Shown here: in pieces, positions 75 to 42,198 of the stretch
How the letters are laid out: every line of letters starts with the position of its first letter
Position numbering within the stretch: the stretch's first letter is position 1
Assembly (NCBI RefSeq): GCF_032854445.1
Contig: NC_088297.1
Span: 9,570,163-9,634,162, forward strand
Direction: 5' to 3'
DNA from: Liolophura sinensis
Taxonomy: Eukaryota > Mollusca > Polyplacophora > Chitonida > Chitonidae
Length of the DNA: 64,000 nt
Translations under genes and position numbers: made by a program
Notes under the pieces: model-generated
Databases searched by the model: none
Seen by the model: only the letters and a program-made list of their open reading frames with translations
Told to the model about the DNA's origin: nothing

Positions 75-508
75 AGCTTGACGCCAGGCGGAGCAGTGCT
101 GTGGGTAGAGGCGGGGATCCAGCGGAGGGCGGGCTATTTTGGTACGGGCGCAGAAAGGCGGGGTCCACACGGCGTCACATAGCTGCGGCGCGGACCAGCT
201 TTGAGCGGTGGCTGTGGAGCGCGACGGACGGAAAGGACGCCCGCGAAGTGTCGGAAATCCCTCCAGAAGAACTCGACGAGTTGCTCGCCAGCTATTTCCT
301 GTCTGTCCGAAAACCCTCTGGTGAACAATACAAGTTGTGCTCTTTCGTCAGCCTGCGCTCCAACCTCCAGACGTATCTCCGGGAGAAAGGGTATCCGGCT
401 AAGATTTCCACGGATAGCCGCTTTGTGAAAAGCCAGAACGCCTTTAACCAGAGAGGTGTGGAATTAGAGAACGCCGGCCTCCATGTCAGGGGATATTCAT
501 ATCATTGA
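75..508 (+). CDS. Alternative 3'-terminal exon with QRICH1/ZMYM-like (DUF3504) domain, copy 1
   Basis: The exon starts after a pyrimidine-rich acceptor (TTCTCTTTGCCAG, ending at 74). Two bases complete a codon, so the acceptor is phase 1, and the frame runs about 144 codons to TGA at 506-508. The middle contains PPEELDELLASYFLSVRKP, then a GEQY motif, a run of basic and hydrophobic residues (SLRSNLQTYLREKGYP) and KSQNAFNQRG. This order matches the conserved core of QRICH1, ZMYM2/3/4 and related proteins, known to derive from the N-terminal DNA-binding half of Crypton tyrosine recombinases; the catalytic half is absent. It is the most divergent of the four such exons here. A poly(A) signal lies at 527-532, only 19 bases past the stop. 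There is no good start codon, so an upstream exon outside the window must supply the N-terminus. The family call is from the pattern; the role as an isoform-specific DNA- or protein-binding end is inferred. Confidence 0.78.
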
Positions 509-3407
509 TTGAGGAAATTTTAAAATAATAAAACAACCAAGTCATGATATGTCCGCTACAATGACAAAAGCATGTGCCTTTCATGTTATAGCTGACCTTC
601 AGACTGTAACCGTTGAATATTGTTGCGTGCGGACACACAGCACGCCTGTGCCCTTCACGTTGGTACATCCCAAGGGGACGTGCACTGTAACACCGAAGGG
701 GACTGGTGGAATAACGTCTCACATATGATGTACAAGCAGATCAGTGCGGCAATTTCCAGATTACATCTTGAACTGTTAACGAAGACTAATATGATAATAG
801 CACCCGTTATACATAACCTAATCACAGTAAATATAATAAAGAGTCAAAAAAGCTTTTATTAAAAAAAGATCTATTATGAGGATCTATGTCGAGAAATGTT
901 TAAAAATCACCCTTGTGTACACAGATGTATCATGGGAGCCATTTCAGTGTACCAGTCTACTGGACGATATTTAAAACACACTAATTCTGCTGTTGAGTAC
1001 CAGGATAGTCTTGAAGCCAGAGTGCCCGACTATCCCCGGGAAACTGAGATTATCCCCACTGTTGCTTTGACTCGTTTCCGATGGTTTCAGTGACCACCAA
1101 GTGCCTTGGAGAAATCTTAAGAGTCGATATCTAAAACTACAACCAGTGCTGGGCCCAAAGTCCAAAGGCCAGGTTAACTACTTTTTATACAACAGAGAAG
1201 TTATTGATGGAAGTTTATATTCCGCTACAAGGCCCTGCACAAAGTGCTTTATTACAAACATTACGATGTATACGAGTTGTATTAAATGTGATTATTTTAG
1301 GTATTGTAAATATCTTGACGGGTTGAGGGAATATTTGAGAGAATTTAACCCTGTCTGTTTTTCTTGTTGAATGGGTCCAAATATCACGCCCAGAGTATAT
1401 ATAAATTCTTAAATCAACGACATGCACCACGTGTCTACTGGATGGAGGCTACAAGGCAACGGCCTATAGACTGATATTGAATGTTTACTGACCTTTGCCA
1501 CACATCACTAATCCTGTCAGCAATTTGATGTGGTGGACAGACCTGTGTAAGTTATTTCACATGCCCAGTCAAGCTAGTCATTTGATGCAGTTGGCTGACT
1601 TTTTGAATTGCCCTTGATCATTATTTGGACTTTCTGTCCCATCTTATTGCCTAAGCAATGGTTATAAATGTACCCTCTCTGCTTACCACATATTTTTGGC
1701 TCATGGTGATGGAAAATTAAGCTTATACAAAGTCGCTCTGCCTGTAAATATTCATTGAAGTCATTCCGTCCTATTATCGGAGGTGTGTTTCTTTCTCCTT
1801 CTGTCTATTTTGATTAAGCATTGCAGACATCTCATGGAAAGTTGTTAAAATGTCCCGTCATGCTTGGTACCTATTTGTTCCGGCATCGGGATATATACAG
1901 GCTTGATCGTACAATGTTACTGTTTGCTATTTTTATCATAAAATGGGGTATGATTTTTAATGTTGCATAATGTATTAATCCATTTTACGCGTAAAGTGCC
2001 ACTTGATTTGTTATTGTTCTAATGACATGTCGAAGTTAATTCATGTTTATATATATCCATTTAACAAACTGAATACATCCTGATTTGATTATCAGCTGTA
2101 TGTCGGTTTACACCAGTGTGGAATCATATGTGTTACCTGTTGAAAGATTTTAGTGTTCTGTGTTATTCAAAATGAAATTAAAAGAAAAATTTTAACTGGA
2201 GCAGTACTTTGATTTGTCCTTTGAATAATATTGTTTGTTAATGTTAGGCATGTACGTACTGTCCGAGATGAACAAGATCCTGTGATTTGTATTTACCTAC
2301 CTACTAATTTGGATTGTCAAGTGAGAGTCGCAAATTCGTACAGAATGTACGTGTCATAGGAATTCCATGGGTGTTGTCGGATAACTTTATAGGGTTATGA
2401 AGATAAACTGCGGCTGTGGTCTTTCGAATTAAGACATGCCAGTGCGGTTATGAAAAACAACAATGTGGAACTGTCCGGATGGTCTTAGGACAGATCTTAC
2501 CATATGACATGCAGCTTACCGGAGACAGGGTTTATGCATTGCAGTTTAACTTCCGTATTCAAGAAATTTTCGCTTGTACGGTGTACAACGAACGGCCTCT
2601 TTCACGAGCCTCCTCGACTGGTTAACTTCACAAAGGCCCCAAAAACAGTGAGAGCGAGGGATCCACAAACCCCTGAACATTCATCCCACCCTAGATTTAT
2701 AACGGTTACTTAGGTAACCTTCGCTAATGACGAAAAGTAGCGTATCCGTTCTGAAATAAGAGCGTTCCACAACAATGTTTGTTTGATCGAAACCATACCT
2801 AAGGGAGATTTTCCCTCAGTTAATTCTATAGTTTGATTTGTCGCTACTAAGAATTTAAAATACTACAGCATATGGACAGTAAATTCAGGGTAATGACGGA
2901 AGTGGTCACTAGCCTTCACGCTAGAAGGCTAGAAGTAGACAAGAGGCTAGAAGTAGAAAATTTTCTCCCCTACGTAACAAACTCTACAGGTTTTACTGGT
3001 CATGTTTTCCTTTCAAGTTCATGTGCAGAATTTCGATTTTCATAAAACCTTTGTGTTAGAGCACGTTTTTCGCTGTCAAACTATGTCTTTATTCTGTTAC
3101 TTTACCAGTAATGACTTAGAGAAATTTGCCTAGACATTGGTGGAATTAAAAGCTCTGAAGCTGAAAATGTAGCTCCGAATTTCATATGGGGTTTCAAAAA
3201 AAAGGGCAAAGGAACACAAATAGCCATTGAGATTTCAGTAGTAGAATAGAATCGATGTTGGTATGGGACAAAAGAAGTCACCACGCCATGAACGGTAATA
3301 GCCTGTTACCCTGCTGCTGAATGAGACATTGGAGCAATTGGGAAGGTCTTTTCTTCTGGTCTCTATAATAGACAGTCTGTAGTACCTATTTTCCCGTTGT
3401 GTTTCAG
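509..3407 (+). other. 3' UTR of copy 1, then intron or spacer
   Basis: No convincing exon on either strand. Two AATAAA signals follow the preceding exon (527-532 and 835-840). The rest is AT-rich unique-looking sequence. Confidence 0.5.
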
Positions 3408-3851
3408 ACAGGACTCCTCGGCCCTACCTTTGCGCCCTCTGCGGTAAGAGGTTCTCCCGCGGGGGACAGTCTTCGCCGTCACCGGGCCCTGCATGACCCC
3501 AGCTCCGTCACCTTCCCATGCTACGTATGTGGGGTCCGCTTCCGCCGGAAGGACCACGTCCGCCGTCATCAACGTAGAGCCCATCCGCAGCTCATCGATT
3601 TGACATCCCTACATGGGACAACGACAGAAACCCCCGTCCTGGACTTCCAACAGACGGAGCGGTTATTAAGCGACCTGAGCCAGGCTAAAGCCGGTGATAC
3701 GTCTCAGGTCCGGCAGCCTGAAGACCTCATTATGGAGACCAGCTTGAGTTTTGAGTTGATTAGAGATAAGGGTATCCTTGACGGACAACAACAACAACAA
3801 CAATCGCGTCATCATCCTCAGGTTCACCCGAGTATTACAAAGATAAGCTGA
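3408..3851 (+). CDS. Alternative 3'-terminal exon with two C2H2 zinc fingers (A), frameshifted
   Basis: The acceptor TTGTGTTTCAG ends at 3407. A phase-1 reading gives TPRPYLCALCGKRFSRG, the first half of finger 1. The second half (DSLRRHRALH) is in the +1 frame, after a run of five G at 3461-3465, so one extra G breaks the finger. Finger 2 follows intact (C-x2-C, F-RRKDHV-RRH, RRAH). A tail of about 90 residues then includes a short Gln run (3788-3803) and stops at TGA 3849-3851. The architecture is the same as the other four finger exons: two fingers, linker DPSSVTFPC, second helix with RKDHV. These fingers are expected to bind DNA. The break may be an assembly error in a homopolymer or a true decay. 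No start codon is needed if it is spliced to a shared region. Confidence 0.8.
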   Translation, partial: TGLLGPTFAPSAVRGSPAGDSLRRHRALHDPSSVTFPCYVCGVRFRRKDHVRRHQRRAHPQLIDLTSLHGTTTETPVLDFQQTERLLSDLSQAKAGDTSQVRQPEDLIMETSLSFELIRDKGILDGQQQQQQSRHHPQVHPSITKIS

Positions 3852-8503: not shown

Positions 8504-9860
8504 AAGCAGGCTGCAGACAGCTGTCTACTGCCGTCCCCGTAGCCGCCTACTTATATATTCTTACTATTTAAATTAATAGTAATTGTGACATAATTACTTT
8601 CAATCAGTCGCCTACTTTTAAACTCTGACATCCTTCTCCAGTTCCAAATAAAAACCCTGGGTAGTTGTATAACCTGAAGTCGTTCCGTTCAGAAAATAAC
8701 AAACATAACTGTATAAATCCATTACAATTTTTCGCGTAAATCTAAAATTCTCGATATCGGAGTAAAACGCCATTTATAAGTATATCAGTAAATTATTTAT
8801 GGATCTGGTAGAATTCACCTAAGGGTGAAATGGTACGTGCATACTGCTTGTTTTACTCTCTGTAGTGTGGTGTAGTGTTTTCATATGGTTGTATTTCTGC
8901 AGCCCTTTACATATTTTTCTTGTATTTATAAAGTACTGCATGTGTGAATGTCATTTTCCCATGTAGCCAAAATGAAGTAGAGGAATACATGTGGGATTTT
9001 GTATGTTTTGTTCTGGGATGTGAAGACGGTGATAATTTATAACAATGTCATTGATACAATTTTGTACGCAAGTTTCATTTTGTTTGTGACTTCAAGACAG
9101 TGGTATATTTTTGTGACGATGCGCTTGGTACAACATTGCATGTAGTCTCCAGTTTGTTTGTTTTTTTTTAATTCAGTATAAAGTGAAAGTTTTATTATTT
9201 TGAACTCTTACTGGGGCTCCTGGAAATATACGCCATGGGTTTATGTATTGAATCAGTCTCTGTACATTNNNNNNNNNNNNNNNNNNNNNNNNNNNNNNNN
9301 NNNNNNNNNNNNNNNNNNNNNNNNNNNNNNNNNNNNNNNNNNNNNNNNNNNNNNNNNNNNNNNNNNNNNNNNNNNNNNNNNNNNNNNNNNNNNNNNNNNN
9401 NNNNNNNNNNNNNNNNNNNNNNNNNNNNNNNNNNNNNNNNNNNNNNNNNNNNNNNNNNNNNNNNNNNNTGATTTAATCCATTCGCAAAGAACATTGCTGA
9501 CGTCATTCCGTCATTGAAAACTGTTGATTGCCTCCCTTTGCATGGACCCGTCCTAATTTCTCGGTTGAGATACTTTCTTAGTTTTTGGATGGTATGTATT
9601 GAAAGTCAATTTCACAATTCATCTAGGGAATATTTACCCGGAACACCCAGTTTGGTTGACGGCTGGTATACGAATGTACGCTTATATAGATGCATTTTTG
9701 GAAGAACATTTCATGCTAGGATGTAGACCAACTTTTCTTGACATCATATACATTACCATGCAGTTGAAAATTCTAGATCAGCTATAGATGGAAACATGGG
9801 AGAGGTTTATAATATGGACAAAGAACATGCATTTACAGCATGCTTGAGTGTTTGTTCATT
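8504..9860. other. Spacer containing an assembly gap
   Basis: AT-rich sequence with no gene seen. It includes the N block described separately. Confidence 0.5.
9269..9468. other. Assembly gap, 200 N
   Basis: Exactly 200 N. The round number suggests a scaffolding placeholder or estimated gap. Open frames crossing it are meaningless. Confidence 0.98.
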
Positions 9861-10593: not shown

Positions 10594-10865
10594 ATTTCCC
10601 CATGGCTCCAAGTCCGGTTCCTGATGTCACTGGCAGGCTCTGCACGGAATGTGGTAAACAGTTCAGTCGTAATGCGCACCTCAAGCGGCATATCATGATG
10701 ATACACATGCCTGCCCCACCCAAGTTCCCGTGTAGTATTTGTGCGGGGACTTTCAGCCGCAAAGATCACCTGAACAGGCACATGAGGAGAGTTCATGGAT
10801 TAGAGGCGTCCGCAGAGACCGATGGACAGGTGTATGATTCGGGTTATAGTATGACCACTTTGTAG
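10594..10865 (+). CDS. Alternative 3'-terminal exon with two C2H2 zinc fingers (B)
   Basis: The acceptor TTCTATGTTGTAG ends at 10593, and phase-1 reading is open to TAG at 10863-10865 (about 90 residues). Finger 1 is CTECGKQF-SRNAHLKRH with IMMIH; finger 2 is CSICAGTF-SRKDHLNRH with MRRVH. All eight zinc ligands are present. Predicted helix contacts (-1, 2, 3, 6) are R-A-H-R and R-D-H-R. A short acidic tail ends YDSGYSMTTL. That tail and its stop codon are the first unit of a tandem array that continues downstream. The likely role is a DNA-binding end of a transcription-factor isoform; the target is unknown. Confidence 0.85.
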
Positions 10866-17797: not shown

Positions 17798-18000
17798 GAT
17801 AGCCTCCCAGTTAACACTGTTGGCGTTTTTAAAAAGGGACGGAGGAGACCCAATAATGGGTGTGTCACTGGAGCGAGTTCAGAACAAATTTGCCTGTATT
17901 ATTGGAGAACTCTGCAGTGAGCCGGTCATCTTGTCCAAATTTGCAATATGGCTGGACCTGAGACTGGCAGAGTACAAGGCCAAGGGAGCTATATCCTTAG
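17798..18000 (+). CDS. Internal exon, probable shared region of the terminal-exon locus
   Basis: The acceptor CATTTTCATTGTACAG ends at 17797 and the donor G|GTGAGATG begins at 18001. Entry is phase 2 and exit phase 1. About 67 residues start IASQLTLLAFLKRDGGDP, continue with ERVQNKFACIIGELCSEP, then LSKFAIWLDLRLAEYKAKG. The segment looks helical and soluble. I do not recognise the family. It joins in frame to the next exon at 18541 (G|AT gives Asp). The codon for its N-terminal side must come from an exon further left that was not found. Coding status rests on good splice sites, an open frame and the agreeing phase of the neighbour. Confidence 0.68.
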
Positions 18001-24759: not shown

Positions 24760-25247
24760 CTCAGCCGATGCTGTCTGGAAGCGGGCCTTCGCCTTCATCC
24801 ACCCGTGCAGACGTCAGGAAAGACACCCGTTTGAGAATGTCCACGCTTGCTTTGCCCCCACATCTCCACCGAGAGGTGGTTCGACGGAGGATATTGCAGG
24901 GAATCGGGTTGAAGGACAAAAATGATCACGTGATTCGGAACTTTATCAGTGTTGTGACGGCACTGGAACGCTGGTGGTGGCAGACTCACGGAGAGAAGCG
25001 TCGCATGGAAACGCTGACGCCCACAGAGCTGGACACGTATCTGTGTGAGTTTTATACAGTGCTGACAAAACCGTCCGGCGAAGACTACGATCCCAAGTCA
25101 TTTAGGGCCTTTCCAACAACTCTCGACCGTTTCCTTAGAGAGAAAAACTATCCAGTGTCCATTCAGAAATCTCCATTGTTCTGTCGTTCACAGCTCGCGT
25201 ATCGAACCAGACTAAGGAAGTTAAAGGAAGCCGTGGAGCTTCGTTAG
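24760..25247 (+). CDS. Alternative 3'-terminal exon with QRICH1/ZMYM-like (DUF3504) domain, copy 2
   Basis: The acceptor CTCACTGTTGTTGTTCCAG ends at 24759; a phase-1 entry (CT, then CAG CCG ATG CTG) is open for about 162 residues to TAG at 25245-25247. The sequence has a basic stretch (HLHREVVRRRIL), a helical region RNFISVVTALERWWWQTHGE, the hallmark ELDTYLCEFYTVLTKPSGED, then LDRFLREKNYPVSI and a C-terminal SQLAYRTRLRKLKE. This matches the Crypton-derived module of QRICH1, ZMYM and KCTD1-like proteins. The recombinase catalytic half is missing, so DNA or protein binding is expected and recombination is not. It is about 85% identical to copy 3 by eye. AATAAA lies at 25905-25910. Confidence 0.82.
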
Positions 25248-25889: not shown

Positions 25890-26029
25890 CTATCTACTAC
25901 TGTGAATAAAAAGATGTTTCAATTTGCTCTGTCATGTATTGGGTTCACCTGAACTCTTTCTGGATTCAGGCATGTGTTGTTGTTGCTCTGCCCAGTCGGC
26001 ACTAGTCAATTCCTCAACCAGATTCTTTT

Positions 26030-26285: not shown

Positions 26286-26695
26286 ATTGCTTTCCGCATT
26301 GGCATAATCGGGGGAAAGAGCATTGTTTAGAGTTCTTAAGCATCCGCTGTTGCATTCCGTGTTCGGTTTTGTGCTTGGATTATTGAAATCAAAACGGATG
26401 AGATCACAGCATACCTGTTGCATGTTACCAACCTTGTAGTATTTGCGTTAAATAATGTTTGAGATTATTGATTTTGAGCGTCTTTTTCTCTGCTGGATAG
26501 CAGTGATATTCGAATGTTGTACTTGGGTAAGACCAGGTCTGTGCAAATGTTGTTTTAGAACGAAATTGCCATAAGCTGCATCTGTGAACAATTTTTTTCC
26601 GGAATTCTTGGAAACATTTTAGTAATATAGGATATGCATCAGGTCTGAGATCAAACACACCCTGAATTAGCGACTTACTGTTGTTGTTGTTCCAG

Positions 26696-27231
26696 CTCAG
26701 TCGATGCTGTCTGAAAGCGGGCCTTTACTTTCATCCACACGTGCAGACACCAGGAAAGACACCCGTTTGAAAATGTCCACGCTTGCTCTGCCTCCCCATC
26801 TCCATCGAGAGGTGGTTCGGCGGAGGATAATGGAGGGAAATGGGTTGAAGAACAAAAATGATCACGTTATTCGTAACTTCATCAGTGTGGTGACGGCACT
26901 GGAACGCTGGTGGTGGCAGACTCACGGAGAGAAACGCCGCATGGAAACGCTGACGCCCACAGAGCTGGACACGTATCTGTGTGATTTTTATACAGTGCTG
27001 ACAAAACCGTCCGGCGAAGACTACGATCCGCAGTCATTCAAGGCGTTCCCAACAGTCCTCGACCGTTTTTTAAAAGAGAAAAGCTATCCAGTATCCATTC
27101 AGAAATCACCAGAGTTTTGTCGTTCTCAGCTCGCGTATCGCACCAGACTAAGGAAGTTAAAGGAATCCGCTCTGCTTCGCAAAAAAGCCGAAAACTTGGC
27201 CATAACCAAGCTCGCGTGCGGAACAGTGTGA
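26696..27231 (+). CDS. Alternative 3'-terminal exon with QRICH1/ZMYM-like (DUF3504) domain, copy 3
   Basis: Acceptor TTGTTGTTGTTCCAG ends at 26695; phase-1 entry, about 178 residues, TGA at 27229-27231. It has the same domain order as copy 2 (HLHREVVRRRIM, RNFISVVTALERWWWQTHGE, ELDTYLCDFYTVLTKPSGED, LDRFLKEKSYPVSI). The C-terminus is longer by about 16 residues, basic then hydrophobic (KKAENLAITKLACGTV). The high identity reaches through the acceptor into the intron, so the pair arose by recent tandem duplication. Isoforms ending in copies 2 and 3 probably have similar binding but different tails. Confidence 0.82.
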
Positions 27232-27545
27232 GACATATGATGTCTACTTGCTAAAATGTAGATATCTCATAAAGGATCGTGACATGTTGGTTGAATCGTA
27301 GGTATCCCTGACCCGGTGCATGGCATGTCTGAGTTTTGCTGAAACGTAGATATGGTATATCTTGTCAACAGCAGGATATGTCTGTGTTTTGGTTGAACCA
27401 TAGAGCATGACATATCAGACTTTTGCAGAAACGCTGATACACGTAAATCTTGTCAAGCAGCAAGACATGTTTGTGTTTTGATGAAACGTTGGTATATTAT
27501 TTCAGAGAGCATGGCATGTATGAGTTTGATTGAACCGTAGATATT
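27229..27545 (+). repeat. Degenerate tandem repeat starting at the stop codon of copy 3
   Basis: About six units of 50-60 bp: CATGACATG or CATGGCATGTCTGAGTTTTG, then GCTGAAACGTAGATAT. One isolated related unit lies past copy 2 (25317-25351, AGCATGACATGTGTGAATCT), so the seed predates the exon duplication. Confidence 0.65.
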
Positions 27546-28755: not shown

Positions 28756-29027
28756 TGGAGACCTCCGTGGCTCAGTTGGTTAGCGCGCTAGCGCAGCGTA
28801 ATGACCCAGGAGTCTCTCACCAATGCGGTCGCTGTGAGTTCAAGTCCAGCTCATTCTGGCTTCCTCTCAGGCCGTACGTGGGAAGGTCTTGCAGCAACCT
28901 GCGGATGGTCGTGGGTTTCCACCGGGCTCTGCCCGGTTTCCACCCACCATAAAGCTGACAGCCGTCGTATAAGTGAAATATTCTTGAGTACGGCGTAAAA
29001 CACCAATCAAATAAATAAATAAATAAA
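28756..29027 (+). mobile_element. SINE family 1, full length, with target-site duplication
   Basis: Complete element from CTCCGTGGCTCAGTTGGTTA to (AAAT)n. Flanks are TACAAGATGGTACC at 28742-28755 and again at 29028-29041, a perfect 14-bp duplication that shows a fairly young insertion. Confidence 0.94.
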
Positions 29028-29177
29028 TACAAGATGGTACCAAAATTTGAATTTGAAAAATCACATGTCAGAATGGAATTGAAGGTGCTAGTGGAAATTG
29101 AAGATTAAGTGTTTTTGATTTCTTGTTGGCATCTTTGCAAGAAACACTCCATGCAGTATGTATCACATTCGGGAATT

Positions 29178-29657
29178 GGTAGTTTGTAAAATGTGTATCA
29201 ATTTCAGGAGGCAAAACATGTACATGTAGCTTTACCTTCGTACATAGTTGGATCGAGCCGGTATCACTTCATTACCACGGATTTCAGTTGGTCTTGGGTT
29301 GAGTTGACTGTCGTCTTTTATGCTTAATTCTGGTCGACCTATTCTGCTTAATTCTGGTCGACCTATAGCCGGGCATGAGATGTAATATCCGGTGCTTTCG
29401 CTATGAAATTCCATGATGCAACACTAGAAATATATGGACCTTCAGACAGGCTTGATACTTGTATGCTGACACCGTAGCGCTTTTTAGGAAAAAGTATTGA
29501 AACGTACGTTGAATATCAAGCAGTAGTTGGGATGGTCTTCGCTCGGTTGTAGTATTCTAGTAATCAAATGAAATGGGCTAAAATAATATGAAATTTGACC
29601 TTTTGGCATCGAATTTTTATTGTTTTGCCTCCTGATATTGATACACATTTTACGAAC
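29178..29657. repeat. Inverted-repeat pair, about 38 bp arms
   Basis: GTAAAATGTGTATCAATTTC with AGGAGGCAAAACA at the left is the inverse of TGTTTTGCCTCCTGATATTG with ATACACATTTTAC at the right. The interior also has a 24-bp direct duplication (GCTTAATTCTGGTCGACCTA, about 29321-29366). It may be an old transposon. Confidence 0.55.
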
Positions 29658-31495
29658 TCATTCATGTATAACAGGACTTTTTCCGATTTTAAATCGTTGT
29701 AACCCTGTCCATGGAACCTACTTTATCACTTGATTTGAATATTTATTTATTAATTTTTTTTTCAAATAAATCAGTAATATGATAAAAATAAAAACCGTCG
29801 CTCCCTTTCCAAAAATTCGTTTCCTATTCGATTGGTTAGATCTTTGCTCCGTTGTATTTTGTCCTAAGAGCAGTATTTAAATATGTGGGTATGTGCATAC
29901 AAGATTTAAGATTTCTGGGTATGTGCATACAGTACACGTATTGCAAAACCTAATTAAGTAAGCTTGTTTAAATTTGATATAGACACACACAGTGATTTAA
30001 GTTTAGGGAGAGAATCGGCCCCGAAGAGGTATGATAAGAAAGTGCAAATTTCAAAATTCCAGCACAGTTCTGTAAATTTCCAAATGAGAAGTAGAAAACT
30101 TGGTCGAAGCTCCCATAAAAGTTATATGGCCAAAAAAGAGATGGTTGCTTAGTAACAATCATGCAGTAATGCAATCGCCACAAGAACGCGATCGCTACCA
30201 ATTTCTCGTGTAGATGAGGAAGTGTCCTTTTAATTTACAGGAAGAAGATCAGCATTAACCAGAAAAGTATCCTTCCTGAAACTTTCATGTGTGTCTTTCT
30301 GTGTGCTGTAAAAGTTTGGTTTTTGTTAACGTTTGCCTTCGTATGTAAAACATAAACTTTATAATGTGATCAGTTTTGTCATACATTGACAAGTTTAAGA
30401 TCTCAGGCGTCGTTCATACAATACAGTTAACTAACGAAGTCACTGTTGACAGTGGGAGAGTTTGAATCTCTGTGGACACTGGGAGAGTTCGAGTCTTTGT
30501 GGTTCTTGTTTTCCATGTGAAATATGCTTTTGTGTGAGTGAAGATATAGGCCATGTTGCAATAATAAGTGTTATCATGAATTACAACGGACAGTTGTTAA
30601 AGTATGGTATTAAGTATCGCGTGGCAACTATAGCAAATTCATACGCCAATCGTAATTGAGAGCACACGTGGTTGTTGTCTAGATATCATTGACATTAACA
30701 TGTTATGCGTAGGGGAAGTATTAGGTTAAAAGTTATAATTGTTGTATATTTCATTGATTGGTGCATAGCAGCATTCTCAAGAATTTTTCAGAAAGTTAAA
30801 TTTGTGGTGCAGTGATTTTCTAATGTCTAATGCAAAAAAAAAAATGATATTTTATTGTGACTGGAGCAGGCTACCATTTTTCGATTTAATAACCTATATA
30901 TTGTTTCAGTGCATGATTGGAGCTTTATTTGTCGCACGCGTGCCATATAACAGTAAAAGAAAAGTATAACAGAACTGAATAAAAGAAGTAACTTTACGAA
31001 TGTGCTAGCAGATGTCACTCACAACTGTTGTCAGTTTCGTTTCTTGTGGTGCACAGTTTCTTACACTTGGACCGATTCCCTGCATTGCCAATGTCGTTTT
31101 GGACACACAAGTGTGTACTGTGAACAGGTCTGAACTGCATGTACATGTGTCCAGTATATGATGTGTTTCTTGATATTTCAATCACATACATAAAGGTGTA
31201 CCGTGTTGTTTGGTGGATGTTTTTTGTAAACACCAAGTAAAGCCTCCATATAGGCAGTTTCTTAGTTTCAGTCAGCATTACGTTTACTGTTAGCCATGAC
31301 ACTTACTGTGATGTTGAAATTTCACGTTTTTTGCAAGGTCTGCGCTCTAGAAAAGCGATCTTGATTCGTCGTGGAATAGAGACGTATATGGCTACCTTTC
31401 TATCGTACATGAAATATCGGAACTGGTGTCCTGAACCATCTATATGCAGTGCCTTTGAAGTTTTTTGACAAGGACTCTCACTGTTGTTGTTCCAG
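29658..31495. other. Intron or spacer without recognised genes
   Basis: No exon. A short duplicated phrase (ACTGGGAGAGTTCGAGTCTT type) occurs near 30449-30503. The end carries the acceptor of the next terminal exon. Confidence 0.45.
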
Positions 31496-32055
31496 CTCAG
31501 TCTTTGCTGTCTGGAAGCGGGCCTTCGCGATCCACCCTCCAACGTGCATCTGGAAACGACGTCAGAACACACTCTACCTCTCCTACAAAGCGTTACCCAT
31601 CACATCTGCACCGAGACGCTGTTCGTAAAAGGATCGTCGCATCCGACAACAAGTCCCCTCACGTTATCAGGAACATTGTGAATGTCGTGTGCACACTGGA
31701 ACGTTGGTTGTATCAAACTCACGAAGAGTCGCGTCGCGTCGAAACGTTACCGCCGATGGAGCTGGACACCTATTTGAGAGAGTTTTTCACTGTGTTGAAA
31801 AAACCGACCGGAGACGACTACGATCCGCATTCGTTTAAAGGCTTTTCCACAAACCTCGATCGCTTCTTGAAGGAACACAGCTACCCGGTGTCAATCAAGA
31901 AGTCGTCGATCTTCTCAAACTCTCAGTCGGCATATCGTGCACGGTTTCAGGAGTTAACAAAATCCGCTCAGATTCGAAAACGAATAATAAGCCAGTACGC
32001 CATGTCAGTCAGTAACCCACAGATTGATTCTGATGTTCATGTTGATAATGGATAG
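31496..32055 (+). CDS. Alternative 3'-terminal exon with QRICH1/ZMYM-like (DUF3504) domain, copy 4
   Basis: The acceptor CTCACTGTTGTTGTTCCAG is the same as copy 2, ending at 31495; phase-1 entry; about 186 residues; TAG at 32053-32055. Conserved segments: HLHRDAVRKRIVA, RNIVNVVCTLERWLYQTHEE, ELDTYLREFFTVLKKPTGDD, LDRFLKEHSYPVSIKKSS and SQSAYRARFQELTK. It is clearly related to copies 2 and 3 but more diverged, and GC is higher than in the flanks. The C-terminus (NPQIDSDVHVDNG) is unique and is echoed in the 3' UTR. AATAAA is at 32287-32292. The Crypton-derived module assignment is from the motif order; molecular function is inferred. Confidence 0.82.
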
Positions 32056-32205
32056 TCTTGGAAACACGCCTTTGGGGCGACAGATTGTCTCTGATGTGCA
32101 TAGCTTTTTTGGTTACAGGCGGATTAACGTTGATTAATCTTGTACGTCTTGCCGGGGAGAAATCTGCAGATTGGTTCTGACGTTTGTGTTGAAAGTGGAA
32201 CCAGC
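32018..32205 (+). repeat. Degenerate repeats of the copy-4 C-terminal tail
   Basis: CACAGATTGATTCTGATGTT (coding, 32019 onward) recurs as GACAGATTGTCTCTGATGTG (32081) and TGCAGATTGGTTCTGACGTT (32163), the last continuing with TGTTGAAAGTGGA. Confidence 0.5.
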
Positions 32206-32511
32206 TTAGAGACCAGCCGTTTAATGTGTTCATACATTTGTATGTCCCCAACACTTCACGTGAAACCGAAATGATAATGTTTCATTAATAAACCATGAAA
32301 CGTTCCATCGGCTTTTGTTCTGTCCGTAAAATTGCGGAAACAATATGTCGAAAACTTTTCGATTTTTTACACTACACCAAGCTATTGCTTGTGTATGGAA
32401 TCCGTTCTTTCATTTTCGTTTCTCTCATTCCTCATATAAAAATCAAACAAGACACTGAAAATGTAATTAAATACGTTGAATTGTTAGAAACTGCGTGGGT
32501 TTCTTTTGAGC

Positions 32512-32830
32512 GCTTCTATGGCCTAATGGTTAGATGGAGACCCCAAGATCAAACTTTAAAAGCGGTACTTGTTTGCTGCCTTGCTTGGCGTTCAGCAGGG
32601 AAAGGTAAGCGTAAGGAAACATGATTGGTTGGCCCGGTGTCAATATAATATGACTGGGTGGGCAGTAATATCTGGTGTCTTCAGCATGATACTTCAGTGA
32701 CGGCTGCACTTTGACTCGTCCTGCCACAAGAAGACAATATACGCACTCACACCTAATGACCCCTTGTCGTCATCAGACTGAAAAATTGTTCAATACTAGG
32801 TTAAACCCCAAGCATACATGCATATATACA
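32512..32830 (+). mobile_element. SINE family 2
   Basis: tRNA-like head (ATGGCCTAATGGTTAGATGG, AAGATCAAAC), body with TTGCTGCCTTGCTTGGCGTT and TGGTTGGCCCGGTGTC, and 3' end CAGACTGAAAAATTGTTCAA with AAACCCCAAGCATACATGC. Confidence 0.8.
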
Positions 32831-33329
32831 CTGGGTTTCTCAAGATTTGTGTGTTAATAAAACGTTTCTATGTGCATAGATTTGCAAGTTTTGTTATTAC
32901 ATGTATGTTATTATAAAATACAGCAACCGTTAAGAAAGATTGTGAATAGACACAATCTGCTGATACCAATCACGTTAAGCCAAAGGCAGAATCTGTGTTT
33001 GGCGTCGACAAATCCTAACATTCTTACATCCTTAATGTTTCTTGTCTGTTCCTGTCAAAAGGATGTATCCTGAAAAATTTTATTGACGGCTAATGCCGTA
33101 GTCGTCTAAAGTGTTGCTGTCATCCAAATGTCAGGTCCTTGCTGCGTGAAGCAGCATGTTCAAATCTAGGTCGTGTTGATCGCTGCAGGTTTTCTGTAAT
33201 AAGCCATGTCGTTCTTAACAAAGGGCAGTATTCGCCAGAACGGTGTAACAATCAAATCAACTAAATAAATAGACTTCATGTTTGAATTTGCAGGGTATTG
33301 TGTCAGAACTTTCTGCACTTTAGATTTTA

Positions 33330-33473
33330 TTGATTGATTGATTTGTTTATTTAATTATTTTGTGTTTTACGCTGTACTCGAGAATATTTCCCTTATACGA
33401 CAATGGCCAACATCATGGTTGAAGGAAACCGGGTAGAGCCAGTGGGAAATCCACCATCATCTGGCGGGTGCAG
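33330..33473 (-). mobile_element. SINE family 1, truncated and decayed
   Basis: Tail, TGTTTTACGCTGTACTCGAG, and body to about GTGGGAAATCCACCATCATC. The head is missing. Confidence 0.75.
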
Positions 33474-34618
33474 ATTGTGTAATCAGGCATAGAGGCTGTA
33501 ACTGAAAGAAGATCTGTATATCTTCTTCGCGGGTTGAAATCCAATGATGTACTATTCTTTATAACAGATGGACTCAGTCTTCTTTTTTACATAGATGTGT
33601 GTTTTGTTGCTATTGTTTTAGTGTCGCACATGAGCCTTGCGAATATTGAATATGAACGCACTTCTTCGGATGACAGGTGATATACTCGAATGTCGGATTT
33701 TTATCCAGTCTCCTTAAATCCCAGTCCCTAATCTTGTGACAACTTAAAATAGGGTCTGGGTTTTTTGTCAGTTCGTTCCAGTAAAGCGTTGTTTGGTCCC
33801 TGACAAAAAAGGGTCACATGCTGAAATCCAGTTCATGTTGAGTCGGCTGTGGGCGGTAGTTTATTCGGAATACGTGGCGGTTGATCGCTCGTGCATGCTG
33901 GATTATGTCGAATTTAGGAAATAAATCTAGTAGCAGAGTCCAAAAATGACGAAAGAAAGGACACAGCGCCATCATCCCCAGTCAGAAAGGAAACTTGTCG
34001 GTTTAGTGCCGAGAAAGGGTATAGTTTCCTAGATGGTGTATTAGCAAGGAGTTAATGTGCGATAAATAGGACCTTGTAGGATAAGTGTATATCTGAAAAC
34101 GTGAGGAGGGAACTATTTTACAACTGAATAATAAACTTTCGCATGTTAATCTGTTTACCTTAGTGATTGCGTTGATATGAGCATTGTGTCCCCGCCTCCG
34201 GGTATTCTGTCAGGTTCATTCTAACAGTTTTCACTTGTCGTTCATATGAAGTAGTCTCCTATAACTGGTTTGTAGTCCTTTGTGGAAGTTTGTAAAGAAG
34301 CTTTCTAATAAACCTTCAATTTGTAATCACAAAACAGTACAAAGAGCTTTAGGGATTTGGTTGGGTTTTGAACAACAGCGTATACCTTGCCATATTGAGG
34401 ATACGAAATGTTTAGCAGCTTAAAAGAAATGGGAAATGTACATTAGAGAAGGGAAGTTAGTACGGATTTGATACGAATTATAAAACAACAATTTTAACAT
34501 AGGATGTTGTTCTATTCATTTTCTTTTGTCGTCGGAAAGCTTTGTAAGAAAAGAACCTTAGTCAGTCCGTTACCATGAGTGAAGAAAAAAACTATAACCA
34601 GCCTTGGTCTGCTTGCAG
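33474..34618. other. Intron before the finger-exon C acceptor
   Basis: No other exon seen. Confidence 0.5.
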
Positions 34619-35112
34619 GGGTTGACCCGGCCCTGCCGACGTGCCCGGTATGCAAGAGAACTTTCGCCACTGTAGGCAGTTTACAACGGCACGTGCAACT
34701 TCATATCCCGAATTCAAAGAGGTTCGCCTGCAGCGTGTGTGGGTCCAAGTTCCGAAGGCTGGAACACGTCAGAGCTCACGTGAGGAGTGTGCATCCGGCA
34801 TTAGCGGGATCTGGAGAGCTATACAGGGACACAGGCGCCAGAAGAGCATTGCTGCCCTTCTCTAGACGACCGAGGAATCAGTCCGGGCTTCCCACACCGC
34901 TGGTCAATGGCGCCACGAACTCCACGTCGCTCAGTTTAAATGTGGACAATAGTTCAGTGGAGATATCGAGCAGTTCGACGAAGGATGGTTGGATGACGTC
35001 GAGGCAGAATTTAACCCTACATTGTCTACCTGCGCCTCAGGGCACCGTGTCACCCCGCGTAGACTCCCAGATAGACGTTAGCCGTGTCAAACTAGAACCA
35101 ACGAAATCATGA
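34619..35112 (+). CDS. Alternative 3'-terminal exon with two C2H2 zinc fingers (C)
   Basis: The acceptor TTGGTCTGCTTGCAG ends at 34618; phase-1 reading (GG, GTT GAC CCG) gives about 164 residues to TGA at 35110-35112. Finger 1: CPVCKRTF-ATVGSLQRH with VQLH; finger 2: CSVCGSKF-RRLEHVRAH with VRSVH. Both have complete ligands; helix contacts are T-G-S-R and R-E-H-A. A Ser/Thr-rich tail of about 100 residues follows. It ends RVKLEPTKS, which contains a SUMO-type consensus VKLE, echoing the VKEE in the exon at 18541. The exon is GC-richer than its flanks. The role is an isoform-specific DNA-binding end. Confidence 0.86.
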
Positions 35113-35515
35113 CGGGTGTACTCCACGCAAACATTATTAATTACTTATCAAAATCTAAGACATTGAAGAGGTTTATTACGTCATATATATACTTAAATCT
35201 TCACTTTCTTAGTAAGTAACAGTCTTGTAATATGTGGAAACTTTCAATAACCGCACCACGTGTCTAGGTGACCAGATTTGACGTGAATGGAAAGTCATGC
35301 ACAAAAATAATTACAAAATCTAGTGCTTTGGTTACTTCCTATTCGAGTGACACCTTTTACTTTGTGATAAAATTGGACGCAAACGGATAGTCAAGCACAA
35401 TTCACATGCCAGTACAGTAGTGCTTTGCATGGTGGCATCGTGTTGAAGGTTAATATAGGGTTTTCCTTTTGCCCCCTGCAACACTTCACTCTCTCTGAAA
35501 TAACGGTCCGTTGGA
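35113..35515. other. 3' UTR or spacer of finger exon C
   Basis: No other feature; it ends at the SINE target-site copy. Confidence 0.45.
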
Positions 35516-35786
35516 TTTATTTTTTGATTTATTTGATTGGTGTTTTTCGCCGTACTCAAGAATATTTCACTTATACGACGGCGGCCAGCATTATGGTGGA
35601 AGGAAACCGGGCAGAGCCCGGTGGAAACCCACGACCACCCGCAGGCGGTTGACAGACCTTCCCACGTACGGCCGGAGAGGAAGCCAGCACGAGCTGGACT
35701 TGAACTCACAGCGACGGCATTGGTGAGAGACTCCTGGGTCATTACGCTGCGGTAGCGCGCTAACCAACTGAGCGACGGAGGCCCCC
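35516..35786 (-). mobile_element. SINE family 1, full length
   Basis: Complete head, body and tail on the minus strand. Flanked by GGTCCGTTGGA (35505-35515) and GGTCTGTTGGA (35787-35797), a target-site duplication with one difference. Confidence 0.92.
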
Positions 35787-36684
35787 GGTCTGTTGGAACT
35801 TGGGTGTTTACGGAAGACAAAACTATGGAAAGCAAAACAATCTGACACTGCCTATGGAACATCTTTAGGTTATAAGCGCGTGCGACGTTAACGGAGGCTG
35901 TGTATCATTTATATTTTATATAGTGATTTAAATACTAATCACGTTGACAAGGTTGAGACATATAACATTAGTGCAAGTTCTTGTCTGAAGACAGTTGTCA
36001 TGAAAAAATATTGTACGATCTTTGTACACCTTCTTCCTGTTGGTCGAAGTTTACCGACAGTGTACTGTTATTTACTTTAAATTTCACAGACTGATTTTAT
36101 TTGGGGATGGTCGAGTTGCTTATCTTCGTCAGTGCTAATGGTAACTCAATAAACTGGTAATTGTTTGAAAGAAGAATGGATTATAATTTTCCATGACCAA
36201 GCCTACGCACCCCAGAACACGTAGATAAGAAGTGTGGTGATTATTTTAAAGGTACATTTAAATAATCATCACAGTCTATACTAGTATTTATATACTTGAA
36301 TGTGTTGAATTGAAACACTGTGGTATGACGATGACCTTTGCTGGCCCCTACATAACGTGTGGTATAATCAGTGGCATTTTGCGCGCAGGAGGACCTTAAT
36401 CTTAGTACTGTGTGCCTTGTTGAGAAACAATCATAGCAGATCTTCAGCAAAAGTATGATAAGTAGTAAAATAAGGTAGAAAGCTACACAACGTGCATGTA
36501 CGTGCACAGTCTTCTGCTTTGAGGCATGTCGTTTTTTTTTTATAGGAATTTAGCTAGTATGTCGGCTGGGAATCTCATACGCAGCTTTGATAAATGTAAG
36601 GTAACGTCTTTTAAATTTATTTCTGTACAAGATTCTAATATTTCATGCTCAAAAAATTCAATGCGGTCAGCTCTTTCGCCTTTT
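35787..36684. other. Spacer without recognised genes
   Basis: No exon supported. A possible poly(A) signal is at 36148-36153. Confidence 0.45.
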
Positions 36685-36940
36685 ACACTCAAAAAATTAA
36701 TCTGTTGATTTTAACAGAACATCTGTTGTATGAGTGATGCTAGAATGTATTCTGTTGTTATATCGTAATATTCTGTCATATTCAACATAGTATCCTGTTG
36801 GTCTAATAGAATCTTTATATTGACTCAATAGAATATATATGTGTTATATTTAACAAAATAGTCTGCTGCAATAACAGAATGCATTCCAGCATCACTCAGA
36901 CAACATACACTGTTAAAATTAACATAAATTTTTTCAGTGT
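36685..36940. mobile_element. MITE-like inverted-repeat element, copy 2
   Basis: Best-preserved copy. ACACTCAAAAAATTAATCTG with TTGATTTTAACAG at the left pairs with CTGTTAAAATTAACATAAAT with TTTTTCAGTGT at the right. The inner pair is GAGTGATGCTAGAATG and CATTCCAGCATCACTC. Confidence 0.75.
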
Positions 36941-37310
36941 AGGTGTCTCACATGAAGCGAATATCTGGGTTTATCTTGGCAAACACAGTAAGTTGTTGAG
37001 TCTGTATAAGTGAATATCTCCACGAGATTTTTTGTACTTTCCGACTTCATTCCAGATATTTATCATTACCATTGTGATTGTCATTGTCAGCAGTGTTATC
37101 ATTTGATGTCATCTTTATACTTGATGCTAGAAATCGGTATGCATCGCACTTCACTGTTGCAATTCTCAATGTATATTTATTTCTCGGTAAATATGATATA
37201 TAGAGATGCTTTGCGCATTACACTTATCTTGTTAATTGTATAAAAAGCAACAGTAATCTATATGTGTTGTGTCCAAAATAGTTTCTCTATATTAGTGATT
37301 GTTATGGACC
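36941..37310. other. Spacer without recognised features
   Basis: Nothing supported. Confidence 0.4.
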
Positions 37311-37477
37311 TGTATACCAGTCGTTAACGAGTGTTGTGATTATCTCAGATTATCTGCGTCTGTATACCAGTCGTTATCGAATGTTGTGATTATCTCAGAT
37401 TATCAGCGCCTGTATACCATGCGTTATCGAACGTTGTGATTATCTCAGATTATCTGCGTCTGTATACCAGTCGTTCC
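37311..37477 (+). repeat. 50-bp tandem repeat, about 3.3 copies
   Basis: The unit starts TGTATACCAGTCGTTATCGA and continues with GTTGTGATTATCTCAGATTA and TCTGCGTC; starts are at 37311, 37361, 37411 and 37461. Confidence 0.95.
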
Positions 37478-39520
37478 GCGTACACTTGTTACTTATAGTT
37501 TATATTTATTTTTTATTATTATTTTTTTTCTTGCGCTTTTACATACAACAAAATCAAACCAGATTTGGTTAGTACAAGAAGTACGGTAAGAATTATCACA
37601 TGTAGTTAGGAATTTGGGATTGTTAATTTTTGGCTATACAAGAATTGTCATAATAAGCTTTAGCTGTGTCTGGGGCAGGTGATGATACCAGAAATGCTCT
37701 AACCTTTGTTTATCCACAGTAAGATTTATTTATTTATTTATTTGATTGGTGTTTTACGCCGTACTCCCAACAGTAAGAGTTCTGTTGGAAACTGACGGAT
37801 GAAATGAATAATTACATTCCCTCCATGTGTGTCATGTAAATTTACATTTTACTTTTTCGTTTTATTCTGGTTTTTGCGTCTAATCACATTTGATTCATTA
37901 GATTATGTCAAGAACTTTTGTCCATTAATCCCTTTCTATACCGTCTCATAACCCTATAGGGTTATTAGCAGAGAAAATTTTAATTCACGTATTAAAAACA
38001 TATTAAGATATATTCAAACTGTTATCGCGGATTAAAATGAATGTCGCCTAAACTTCTTGTTGTTTGGTGTGTGCGTGTATGTGTGCGAGCGTGTGTGCGC
38101 ATGTGTGCGCATGTGTTCTAAGGCATAATCAACAAGAGTGTATGGCTAGTGATGTTTAAGCTGTTACGTCTTTACCATTTACATGATTGGCTAGAATAAC
38201 ACCCTTACTGAGGTCAGGTGGCAAGATTTCAGCGGTTACCTGTGACCATTGGTCAATTATCACACTGTCGTCGTTTCTCTGGATTTACTCTCTGTGCTGT
38301 TTTCTTATGTATCATGCACTGGAATGAGGTTGGGTATTCGGAAATTGACGAGGAGTTTCCGTCACAATTGGCTTAATCCAGAGAACTCTACCGGAGGCAA
38401 GGAAAATGGCAGCAACTCTGTTAGACACGCTGTTTCCTCAATGTGGCTTGTTTATATAGGGGGTGGGGGTGGGGGTGGGGGGTGGGGGGGGGGGCCGCGG
38501 AGGTGTGGCTTACCCTGGTATTGTAATTATTTATTTATTTAATTGGTGTTTTACGCCGCACTGAAGAATAATTCACCTATGCGACGGCGGCCAGCATAAT
38601 GTTGTAGAAACTTTCTGCCTATATAGGTAGACTTTGTTGTGGTTTGTAGACTACAAATTGATCCATATTTAATCGAAGCATACAGAAAGAGAAATCGTCG
38701 ATAATAGGGAAAAAAACCCATTTACTTGGATAAACTGTCCGATTGTCCGATTCTGGCCAATCGAGTGCAGAATGGTGTGATTTCAAAATTTGAGTATGAA
38801 TGTGTTTCTGACACACAGATCAACAACTCCCACCCACATCCAATCCCCTCCCACCTGCCTGCAACCAATCCCATCCCGTCCGCACCCAATACCATCCCAT
38901 AAATTTGGGAAGGTTTTCTTCAAAATAAATTAGCTTATCCGTCCTGGAATTAAATCCCATTAACCTCAGGAGATTATCAGTGAAATTATTCGTGCCCGAT
39001 TGTTTGCATAGCTTGATGTCCTCGTACGTAACGGTTTGAACCGAATCCGTCGTAGGCTAAGGTCGACTAATCCTCATTAGTTAGGTATGGTATTAATTTC
39101 TGTCCGTTTCCAAGTTTAACTTTTGATCCAGAATGTAAATGTAATGGTTTTTTTTTCTTCTTTTTTTATGTATTACTGTATTTGCGCATGTATCAGGTGA
39201 CCACAGATGGTTCAAGTTGACGTTTGCATCCTCATACAGGTCATATCTAGAGGTCGTGAAGTTTACCAAAATCGCACAGTTATTTGCCCTTGGGTTGAGA
39301 CAGCAGAGGCAATATGCGTGGAGGACACAAATACGTGTAGACCTATAGCGAGTTAAAAGTGAATAAGTTAGCGTGTATGTCGTATCAAATGCTTATATAC
39401 TTGTATCTGTACGTCATAGGTCAACGTGGACATAAACCTTAAGTCCGCCATACCCAGTCTATTCGTTTTTTTACCATTCCGCGTCGCAAAGTAATTCGCC
39501 CTTCCACCTTGTATTTCCAG
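37478..39520. other. Spacer with SINE tails and low-complexity DNA
   Basis: SINE family 1 tail fragments (minus orientation) lie at 37723-37768 and 38528-38603. A GT/GC-rich microsatellite is at about 38065-38118 and a G-rich run at 38458-38496. No other exon. It ends with the acceptor of finger exon D. Confidence 0.6.
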
Positions 39521-39729
39521 GCGGCTCAAACGGCGGTCCGACGTGTCCGCTTTGTGGCAAATCCTTCACAACCCTTAGGAGTCTGTCTCGACATAAGCGT
39601 GTCCACCAGTCTGACGCCGCCACGTTCCCCTGTCCGACCTGCGGTAGAACTTTCACAAGGAAAGAACACGTCAGGGGACATATAAAACGGGCCCACAAGG
39701 AACTAGCGTCCACGTTTCACACCATGTGA
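39521..39729 (+). CDS. Alternative 3'-terminal exon with two C2H2 zinc fingers (D)
   Basis: The acceptor CACCTTGTATTTCCAG ends at 39520. Phase-1 reading (GC, GGC TCA AAC) is open for about 69 residues to TGA at 39727-39729. Finger 1: CPLCGKSF-TTLRSLSRH with KRVH; finger 2: CPTCGRTF-TRKEHVRGH with IKRAH. Helix contacts are T-R-S-R and R-E-H-G. The exon is almost nothing but the two fingers, with a tail of about 11 residues (ELASTFHTM), the shortest of the set. It has no ATG near its start, so it depends wholly on upstream splicing. AATAAA at 40646-40651 could end the transcript. Both fingers look functional. Confidence 0.86.
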
Positions 39730-41458
39730 CGAGCGTAATTCTGCCTCCTGGAGTTAACTCCCCTTGAAATCGGGTCAGTGTTAATTGTTAGGTTTGAAGT
39801 TTAGACAGGTTTTATTGTTGGAAGTACACCATGGAATTAAAGGCAGGATGTATACTAATGAACAACACGTCTACCCACGCATTGTTATTTGCGATTAAGT
39901 AAATTTGTTGATAATTTCACTAGGGGTTAACGGTCGTACCCAAAATATCCAGCTATACGACAATATCCAGTCTGATATATGCGTGAATTTATCTGGGTAG
40001 TTCCAGGCCGGGGGAAACTATCATCCATCGGCAGGCAGCTGACAGATCTTTAACTCAAACCCTCAGAAGAACCATATAACAAACAGATATGTGTTAGTGT
40101 TTTGAACTTTAGATCATGGAAAAAATACTTGACTGAAGCACGTTTCGACAAGTACACCGACAGATTGAGATGCATTCAAGACGCAATCAGAACAGTTTTG
40201 CCGTTACTGTTGTTTTCAGTTGCTATGTCTTTCGATAAAGGTTTTAGGATGTTGTATTCTGACATAAATTTACGCTGTGCAGATATCCTACTAAAGGCTT
40301 AAATGCAGCGTCTTGTGTCTTTCAGAAGCCCCCCCCCCCCTTATCTGCTCTCTTCGTTGTGTTAGTTCTGTGTTATACCGTTTTAAAGCAAAACGGTGGT
40401 CATGTGAAACAACCGTTCAAACTCCTGCCCCTACCTTTTATTTATTTATTTATGTATTTATTTATCTATTTGAATAGTGTTTTACGCCGTACTCAAAAAT
40501 TTTTCACTTATACAGAGGCGGCCAACATTATTGTGGGAAGAAACCCTCGACCACGTCAACCTTTTAGAATCATAGGCTGTCCTTCCTTACCAGTGTATAC
40601 ATGACGCGAACTATTTTTTTTATATGTATGCCATTCGTTTGCACCAATAAATGAACTATTGGATTTCTGCGTTTTGCCAAATCTGTCTCGTATAAAAGTG
40701 TCAAACATTTATTTCATCATAGAACTTCGCAACAAATATATGCTATAAGTCAGTTACCAGAATGTAAACGTTTACACCTTGGAGCTGATGTTACCTCTCA
40801 AGCTTACATTATTTGTCGTACATTAGTGTCTGTTTGGAGAAAGGCCCATGTATTCCTCATTATTCACTGCATTACGGTCGTACATCTGTGTTTTATCAGT
40901 TACACCGATATATCGATGGAGTTGCATTTTGTAACTGTATTTGATGTATGCACAGGTATATATGATCGCTACATCATGGCATAAGAACACTATTAATTTT
41001 GATTTTCTCCACTTTTAGAGTATTGATTATATTGATTATTCATATTCGGTTGTATCAGGGTTTCTTTTGCTATCTGATAAAAAAAGAAATATATGTTATA
41101 TCAGTTATAGGCGGTTGTCATGTGCCTGTTATTGTGATTTGGTGATGCAATATTGGTTTATCAATACTGGATATGATGCCAGTAGACGTCTATGTTTTCC
41201 TTCAGTATCGCTTTATAGGTTCAGACCATTATTGTAGCTGTAAGCTTAATATGTCCTGACTATACTCGCAGATATTAGCGGTAGCCATGTGTTTAAGATA
41301 ATTTTAGTCTCTAGAACAAACCATTTTTTTTTCAGTACCTACCTAGGAGACAGTGTGATAATTGGCAATGATGCCTCATTGGAACGCCATGCCAAAGATT
41401 GCAGTTCCAAGAAGCGCACTATATGCCAATACTTGTGTATTCTTTCTGCAATTTCACT
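39730..41458. other. 3' UTR or spacer with a SINE fragment
   Basis: A decayed SINE family 1 piece lies at 40437-40555 (minus orientation, TGTTTTACGCCGTACTCAAA). A C-run is at about 40329-40339. No exon. Confidence 0.5.
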
Positions 41459-41700
41459 TCCGGCTCCGTGTCCAGTTGGTTAGCGTGCTAGCGCAGCGTA
41501 GTGATCCAGGAGTCTCTCGCCAATGCGTTCGCTGTGAGTTCAAGTCCAGCTCAAGCTGGCTTCCTCTCTGGCCGTACGTGGGATGGTCTTCCAGCAACCT
41601 GTGGATGGTCGTGGGCTCTGCCCGGTTTCCACCCACCATAATGCTGGCCGCCGTCGTATAAGTGAAATATTCTTGAATACGCAGTAAAGCACCATTCAAA

Positions 41701-41739
<39 letters not shown>

Positions 41740-41741
41740 AT
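41459..41741 (+). mobile_element. SINE family 1, full length, long (AAAT)n tail
   Basis: Head CGGCTCCGTGTCCAGTTGGT, box B GAGTTCAAGTC, body, then at least ten AAAT units. The long tail suggests recent activity. Confidence 0.9.
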
Positions 41742-41959
41742 CATATTTCTACAACATACGCTTTCAAGCTTCCTGGTCAACATGATTCCCCATATAGGTC
41801 TCCCTACCTAGTCACCGTGCATTGACGCTGACATGACTGAGTCGACCAGAAGGAAGTGACCGTGTGACCGTGTATGTACAAATGTACACACCACATGTTT
41901 CCTCTCAAATTCAGTTTATCGTGGCGTGCTTATGTTTGTTTTTTATTTTCTGTTTGCAG

Positions 41960-42198
41960 ACATTCCTTCCGGTTCACAGATCCCGACGTGCAGCGCTTGT
42001 GGTAAGTCGTTCTCCCGGAAGTTCAGCTTGTTGCGGCATCAGCGTATGCACCAGGCCGCCGAACAGCGGAGGTTCCAGTGTCCCATTTGTGGGCTGCGGT
42101 TCAAGGAAAAGCATCATGTGAAGAGCCATCGCCTGGCGGTGCACGAGAAAACAAAGCGCAACTCATCCGCTGGTGTCATCTCCAGTGACACACCATGA
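41960..42198 (+). CDS. Alternative 3'-terminal exon with two C2H2 zinc fingers (E)
   Basis: The acceptor TTATTTTCTGTTTGCAG ends at 41959. Phase-1 reading (AC, ATT CCT TCC) is open for about 79 residues to TGA at 42196-42198. Finger 1: CSACGKSF-SRKFSLLRH with QRMH; finger 2: CPICGLRF-KEKHHVKSH with RLAVH. Helix contacts are R-F-S-R and E-H-H-S; finger 2 departs most from the RKDHV helix of the others. The tail ends SSAGVISSDTP. The second half of finger 2 plus the tail and stop is the seed of a tandem array that runs on for 430 bp. It is the last terminal exon of the plus-strand locus seen before the convergent SLCO gene. Confidence 0.86.

Follow-up and report, generated by a model that had tools for sequence, protein, structure and literature searches.

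Alternative 3'-terminal exons are best known as a one-of-many design from the insect BTB loci lola, mod(mdg4) and fruitless, where one shared N-terminus is followed by many alternative C-terminal exons that are mostly DNA-binding. Passages of two published accounts give 20 isoforms for lola, 17 of them with zinc fingers, and at least 30 for mod(mdg4), mostly with FLYWCH domains, and describe trans-splicing at both loci (PMC11426971, PMC1947980). On a smaller scale, a passage on vertebrate KIAA1958 describes two isoforms that carry different Crypton-derived DUF3504 domains encoded on different exons (PMC3212892). Here, we analyzed a 64,000-nucleotide stretch of the genome of the chiton Liolophura sinensis (hereafter the window), in which nine coding exons, starting at positions 75, 3408, 10594, 24760, 26696, 31496, 34619, 39521 and 41960, had been proposed by a first-pass annotation to be alternative 3' exons of one such locus. 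Our own reading, to which we give a probability of about 87%, is that the window holds one gene (D) and the 3' part of another (C), tandem members of a family whose genes each have their own shared exons and alternative last exons, as known here from DNA and public protein models.

Positions are those of the window, negative values lying to its left, and a position on contig C3, which holds the window, is obtained by adding 9,570,162. We examined a region of 264 kb around and including the window, a genome of 609,464,459 bases in 632 contigs and a set of 122 public proteins coming from three protein searches; matching in these searches needs shared 5-residue words, such that distant relatives may be missed, and one of the three listed 120 of its 123 matches, with 7,991 candidates scored. 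Passages of the L. sinensis genome paper report 609.5 Mb in 632 scaffolds, the longest of 96,433,062 bases (PMC11068029), and a passage of its correction replaces the species name L. japonica by L. sinensis (PMC12441733). The public models that match the region carry the name of this chiton, bearing out the earlier impression that the DNA came from a probable mollusc.

The 264-kb region contains four complete paralogous genes (B, Bp, C and D) and the tail of a fifth (A, + strand), and all complete genes follow one plan: a start exon (145 nt in 4/4 genes), then a second exon of 597-714 nt (714 nt in D, 663 nt in C, 597 nt in Bp and 693 nt in B), then a run of terminal exons. The shared exons are the following:

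17856..18000, + strand: gene D shared exon 1, with an ATG, 48 codons plus one base and a GT phase-1 donor; it encodes the N-terminus of public model P0001
18541..19254, + strand: gene D shared exon 2, 714 nt between an AG acceptor and a GT donor, exact in P0001
-45209..-45065 and -44173..-43511, + strand: gene C shared exons 1 and 2, left of the window
-73510..-73654 and -74926..-75522, - strand: gene Bp shared exons 1 and 2
-102712..-102856 and -104576..-105268, - strand: gene B shared exons 1 and 2

Exon 2 of gene D is in phase 1 at both ends, its last base is G and it encodes a linker with a PsiKxE motif; its open frame (18528-19289) has no Pfam match. For gene A, of which only the tail lies in the region, the exon 1 copy located at -191849, which has the same orientation, would fit as its start. 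The exons at 75, 3408 and 10594 lie downstream of the shared exons of gene C and upstream of those of gene D, and the six exons from 24760 to 41960 lie downstream of the latter, such that what had been taken for one array of nine is divided between two paralogues, each with its own shared exons:

75..508, + strand: gene C terminal exon, QRICH1-like (Pfam QRICH1, E 8.7e-6, 26.2 bits, below the 30.8 cut-off)
3408..3851, + strand: terminal exon of gene C with a C2H2 finger pair, whose frame breaks within the first finger
10594..10865, + strand: last terminal exon of gene C, two C2H2 fingers (Pfam), phase 1
24760..25247, + strand: terminal exon of gene D encoding a recombinase core-binding (QRICH1-like) domain; public model P0001 has exactly this junction
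26696..27231, + strand: gene D terminal exon, QRICH1-like, a near copy of 24760 (dN/dS comparison with it), phase 1
31496..32055, + strand: gene D terminal exon, QRICH1-like by a profile of four window exons, without a Pfam match on its own, phase 1
34619..35112, + strand: gene D terminal exon, two C2H2 fingers (Pfam), phase 1
39521..39729, + strand: gene D terminal exon, two C2H2 fingers (Pfam), phase 1
41960..42198, + strand: last terminal exon found for gene D, two C2H2 fingers (Pfam), phase 1

No further terminal exon was found from 42198 to +114 kb. A run of 200 N at 9269-9468, probably a scaffold gap, lies between the terminal exons 3408 and 10594. The whole region holds 35 terminal exons (2 in A, 9 in B, 5 in Bp, 13 in C and 6 in D), namely 22 QRICH1-like exons (one short), 12 C2H2 pairs (one broken) and one other; those without a public model were assigned to their gene by position and strand. 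The tandem arrangement of C and D on one strand, together with the trans-splicing that the passages cited above describe for lola and mod(mdg4), would also suit a single transcription unit across both genes or a trans-spliced locus, in which the shared exons of C also join the ends of D or the reverse. We consider this unlikely, given that 33 of the 33 terminal exons of the four complete genes can be assigned to upstream shared exons on the same strand and that eight public models of B, Bp and D in the region join the N-terminus to ends of their own array.

The evidence that shared exons are joined to one terminal exon out of many comes from public "isoform X" models, a kind of model for which the annotation pipeline generally uses RNA evidence. 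In 19 family genes, these models display a shared N-terminus followed by divergent ends. Gene B has five listed models with one N-terminus and five different terminal exons, Bp has two models, D has one (ending in exon 24760) and two models of gene A map to its tail. At all nine junctions that we mapped to the DNA of the region, the preceding G and the first two bases after the AG code for the residue found in the model. The pattern extends to the 122 proteins. Of these, 107 fall into 19 multi-model groups whose members are identical over residues 1-60. Where the sequences of a group part, the divergent stretch invariably starts with A, D, E, G or V in 17 groups (99 proteins), and the remaining two groups (8 proteins) have G or V as the final residue in common; this is the pattern required by an exon 2 whose last codon begins with a single G. 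The largest group counts 24 proteins, the highest isoform number being X31, and LOC135463552 has 31 ends going by its model names. The isoform models in 19 genes and the 9/9 phase-1 junctions thus support the one-of-many choice of 3' exons that had been proposed from the letters of the window. Two observations on the genes of the window weigh against our reading: no gene C protein is present among the listed matches of the three protein searches, and only 24760 of the six terminal exons of gene D is found in a listed public model.

The acceptors were then considered independently of the models. All nine exon starts sit directly after an AG with two bases left to complete a codon, as the first-pass annotation had noticed; its claim that each exon ends in its own stop holds for the eight that are open from acceptor to stop and fails for exon 3408, in which a stop occurs 28 codons after the acceptor, inside the first finger, with the remainder of the finger pair in another frame. 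Exon 3408 is a decayed exon, a variant or an assembly error. We scored every AG with a 12-site matrix, holding out the training sites near the tested exon, for 32 of the 35 terminal exons (all but 3408, the short frame -80958 and the end -94932/-97109, which spans two exons). The best-scoring acceptor was in phase 1 (two bases left) in 31 of the 32 exons; among the 23 exons that had contributed nothing to the training of the matrix, this was so in 22. The remaining AGs of the same stretches left 0, 1 or 2 bases in 120, 101 and 108 cases, respectively. The sole exception was exon 75, where the AG at 10 scored above the AG at 75, ranked second; for exon -116282, the top-scoring site differs from that of the public model and both are in phase 1. 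The uniform phase of the terminal exons is beyond chance. Poly(A)-signal-like hexamers are found after the stops at varied distances (the first at 22 to 1433 bases) and carry no weight in our reading.

A locus with zinc fingers at all nine ends, as the comparison with BTB-zinc-finger loci would imply, is not supported: four of the nine carry a recombinase core-binding (QRICH1-like) domain. Against PF25561, the QRICH1-like exons of the window scored 26.2, 17.4 and 15.3 bits, with one exon giving no match, for a curated cut-off of 30.8; among 102 family proteins, 35 matched PF25561 at E <= 0.01 (best 2.7e-7), and some carry precomputed PF25561 labels. The nearest structure to the predicted fold of the domain was chain 9hjt_H of the Zincore structure, which we take to be QRICH1, followed by Cre. 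On this predicted fold, which is that of tyrosine-recombinase core-binding domains, we assign the QRICH1-like ends to the core-binding domains of Crypton-type tyrosine recombinases. The catalytic DUF3504 part (PF12012) has at least 59 matches genome-wide (150 of 167 candidates scored) and none within C3 9.42-9.68 Mb; the lack of a match at the locus and the phase common to the ends led us to reject full Crypton elements. Of the 122 public family proteins, clustered at 90% identity, 107 are QRICH1-like. Other ends exist: P0097 (LOC135463852 isoform X3) terminates with helix-turn-helix domains of the Tc5/CENP-B type, which adds another transposon-type end to the recombinase one, and the gene Bp model P0014 has a two-exon end (-94932..-97303, - strand) with no Pfam match and, possibly, a SAMD3-like look. 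A BEN match of P0029 was below the cut-off, BEN being found in 2 of 102 proteins at E <= 0.01. Concerning the fingers, a PDB sequence search with exon 39521 placed Tramtrack (2drp) far below many C2H2 proteins, which led us to reject a Tramtrack-like type, and Tramtrack was absent among the 60 matches listed for exon 10594; we claim no special kinship. A viral fold library gave no match at E <= 0.001.

The ends could also be independent genes, or what is left of zinc-finger genes and inserted Crypton elements, their common phase being a by-product of duplication. Duplication is real: in a tree of the core-binding domains with 111 leaves (P0001 being represented twice), 74 leaves have their nearest neighbour in the same gene, against 7.8 on average and 19 at most after shuffling, indicating that the runs grew largely inside genes, with some exons having their closest kin in other genes. 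The broken frame of exon 3408 would equally suit a remnant. However, public models join the ends to shared exons, no own start exon was seen for the terminal exons, none of them has the DUF3504 catalytic part, and one phase is common to two unrelated domain classes. Purifying selection speaks in the same direction: exons 24760 and 26696 differ by 0.071 nonsynonymous (dN) and 0.294 synonymous (dS) substitutions per site, from which we conclude that selection has constrained both exons ever since their divergence. We therefore see very little room for separate genes or remnants.

The shared part of the proteins is unlike that of the insect loci. Exon 1 encodes 48 residues, with at least 25 columns invariant among 32 aligned proteins, and is predicted to form helices at residues 5-19 and 23-42 (middling confidence), followed by a disordered linker in which a SUMO-type motif and clusters of basic residues occur. 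With one protein taken from each of 34 groups, 31 have a [VILMAF]KxE motif within residues 60-260, against a mean of 4.0 and a maximum of 8 after shuffling. In eight family proteins, P0001 included, the N-terminal segment has no Pfam domain, and a PDB sequence search with P0034 gave one match (E 0.22); we claim no fold match for the segment because the aligned rows span residues 289-408 only. BTB (PF00651) has 108 matches in the genome, four of them on C3 and none within C3 9.42-9.68 Mb, and none is found in P0001 and seven other family proteins, such that we reject a BTB locus on the BTB profile search of the chiton's own genome. The likeness to lola, mod(mdg4) and fruitless that had been put forward consequently stands for the layout and falls for the BTB domain, the N-terminus being a different helical segment of ~48 residues with a disordered linker. 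One BTB-zinc-finger gene with nine alternative 3' exons would share with our genes an N-terminus followed by many DNA-binding C-terminal exons, but the missing BTB, the two sets of shared exons and the four ends out of nine that are not fingers make such a locus highly improbable.

Beyond the region, the first 64 residues of gene D gave 48 genome matches, of which three are pieces of exon 2 and 45 are copies of exon 1: 35 on C3 (17 within 8.87-9.59 Mb), 7 on C7, 1 on C6 and 2 on C1. The two C1 copies, L029 (C1:70529833) and L030 (C1:79760603), are divergent (54% and 50% identity); they may be the oldest in the family and the most suitable queries for finding relatives in other molluscs. Nine neighbouring exon 1 pairs lie less than 10 kb apart (on C3 and C7), eight of them head to head with 3-9 kb between start codons, an arrangement that would fit shared promoters. 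All the named protein matches listed are from L. sinensis, in searches that need shared words and may cover few chiton proteomes. P0002 (source "lgn", 208 residues), probably from a related species, is 75% identical over 69% of the exon 1-2 query and has no exon 1 part; it matches exon 2 of gene D and continues past its donor. We found no description of the family in the open-licence literature searched, nor any mention of it in passages that a search for related terms gave from two chiton genome papers; this multigene family is apparently undescribed so far. Its isoforms include the L. sinensis models called "zinc finger protein 181-like" or "KIAA1958 homolog", such that ordinary annotation hides the family.

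As for the surroundings, the right-hand neighbour of gene D consists of organic anion transporter (OATP/SLCO) exons (45979-55083, - strand), with a Kazal-type domain piece at 49041-49367. A repeat with frames like FIYLFIYL and RRTQEYFTYTTAASIM recurs in the window and the region (28817-29104, 35335-35904, 41454-41807, 57026-57313 and more).

Reading the window as two tandem family members, we propose that each gene would be transcribed from its own promoter, that exon 2, with its phase-1 donor and last base G, would be cis-spliced to any one terminal exon on the same strand, and that the stop and poly(A) site of the chosen exon would end the message. The resulting isoforms would have one N-terminus and one of many DNA-binding ends, either a C2H2 pair or a domesticated Crypton-type core-binding domain without its catalytic half. 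Trans-splicing is not needed in this scheme because all terminal exons of the four complete genes lie downstream of the shared exons on the same strand. All terminal exons would be used, the N-terminus may mediate protein contacts, and the ends would bind DNA and act in transcription.

Such a system differs from each of its closest relatives. Contrary to lola-type loci, where one locus is involved, the chiton has a whole family, exon 1 being present in 45 copies, and its annotated ends are mostly recombinase core-binding domains, with fingers in the minority. KIAA1958 has two alternative exons, whereas up to 11 QRICH1-like exons form a run in one chiton gene (C), and the chiton ends comprise the core-binding half only, with C2H2 exons in the same runs. 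The Crypton-derived proteins QRICH1, ZMYM, WOC and KCTD1 share with the chiton ends a tyrosine-recombinase-derived domain; in contrast, the chiton region lacks a DUF3504 match, its sequence match is mostly below the Pfam cut-off and its N-terminus is another one. QRICH1 forms Zincore, described in a title as binding zinc-finger factors (title cited in PMC13383152). Because the closest fold is that of QRICH1, which binds such factors on DNA, the analogy suggests that a finger isoform and a QRICH1-like isoform from one gene may pair. More broadly, and as a tentative idea that we would not yet bet on, the family could be a transcription-factor system of the chiton lineage, in which a new, strongly conserved N-terminal segment (45 copies) would be spliced to one of well over 100 interchangeable, DNA-binding and mostly recombinase-derived ends, and in which finger and QRICH1-like isoforms could pair through that segment, giving a combinatorial code within one gene.

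With an unrelated N-terminus, tens of genes and mainly recombinase-derived ends, the chiton family would show that the one-of-many 3' exon design arose independently of the insect BTB loci and can scale up, and it would represent the domestication of a transposon-derived fold on an unusually large scale. It raises the testable question of how splice choice among up to 13 ends (gene C) or 31 ends (LOC135463552) is controlled, and the question of whether there is a trade-off between duplicating genes and duplicating exons.

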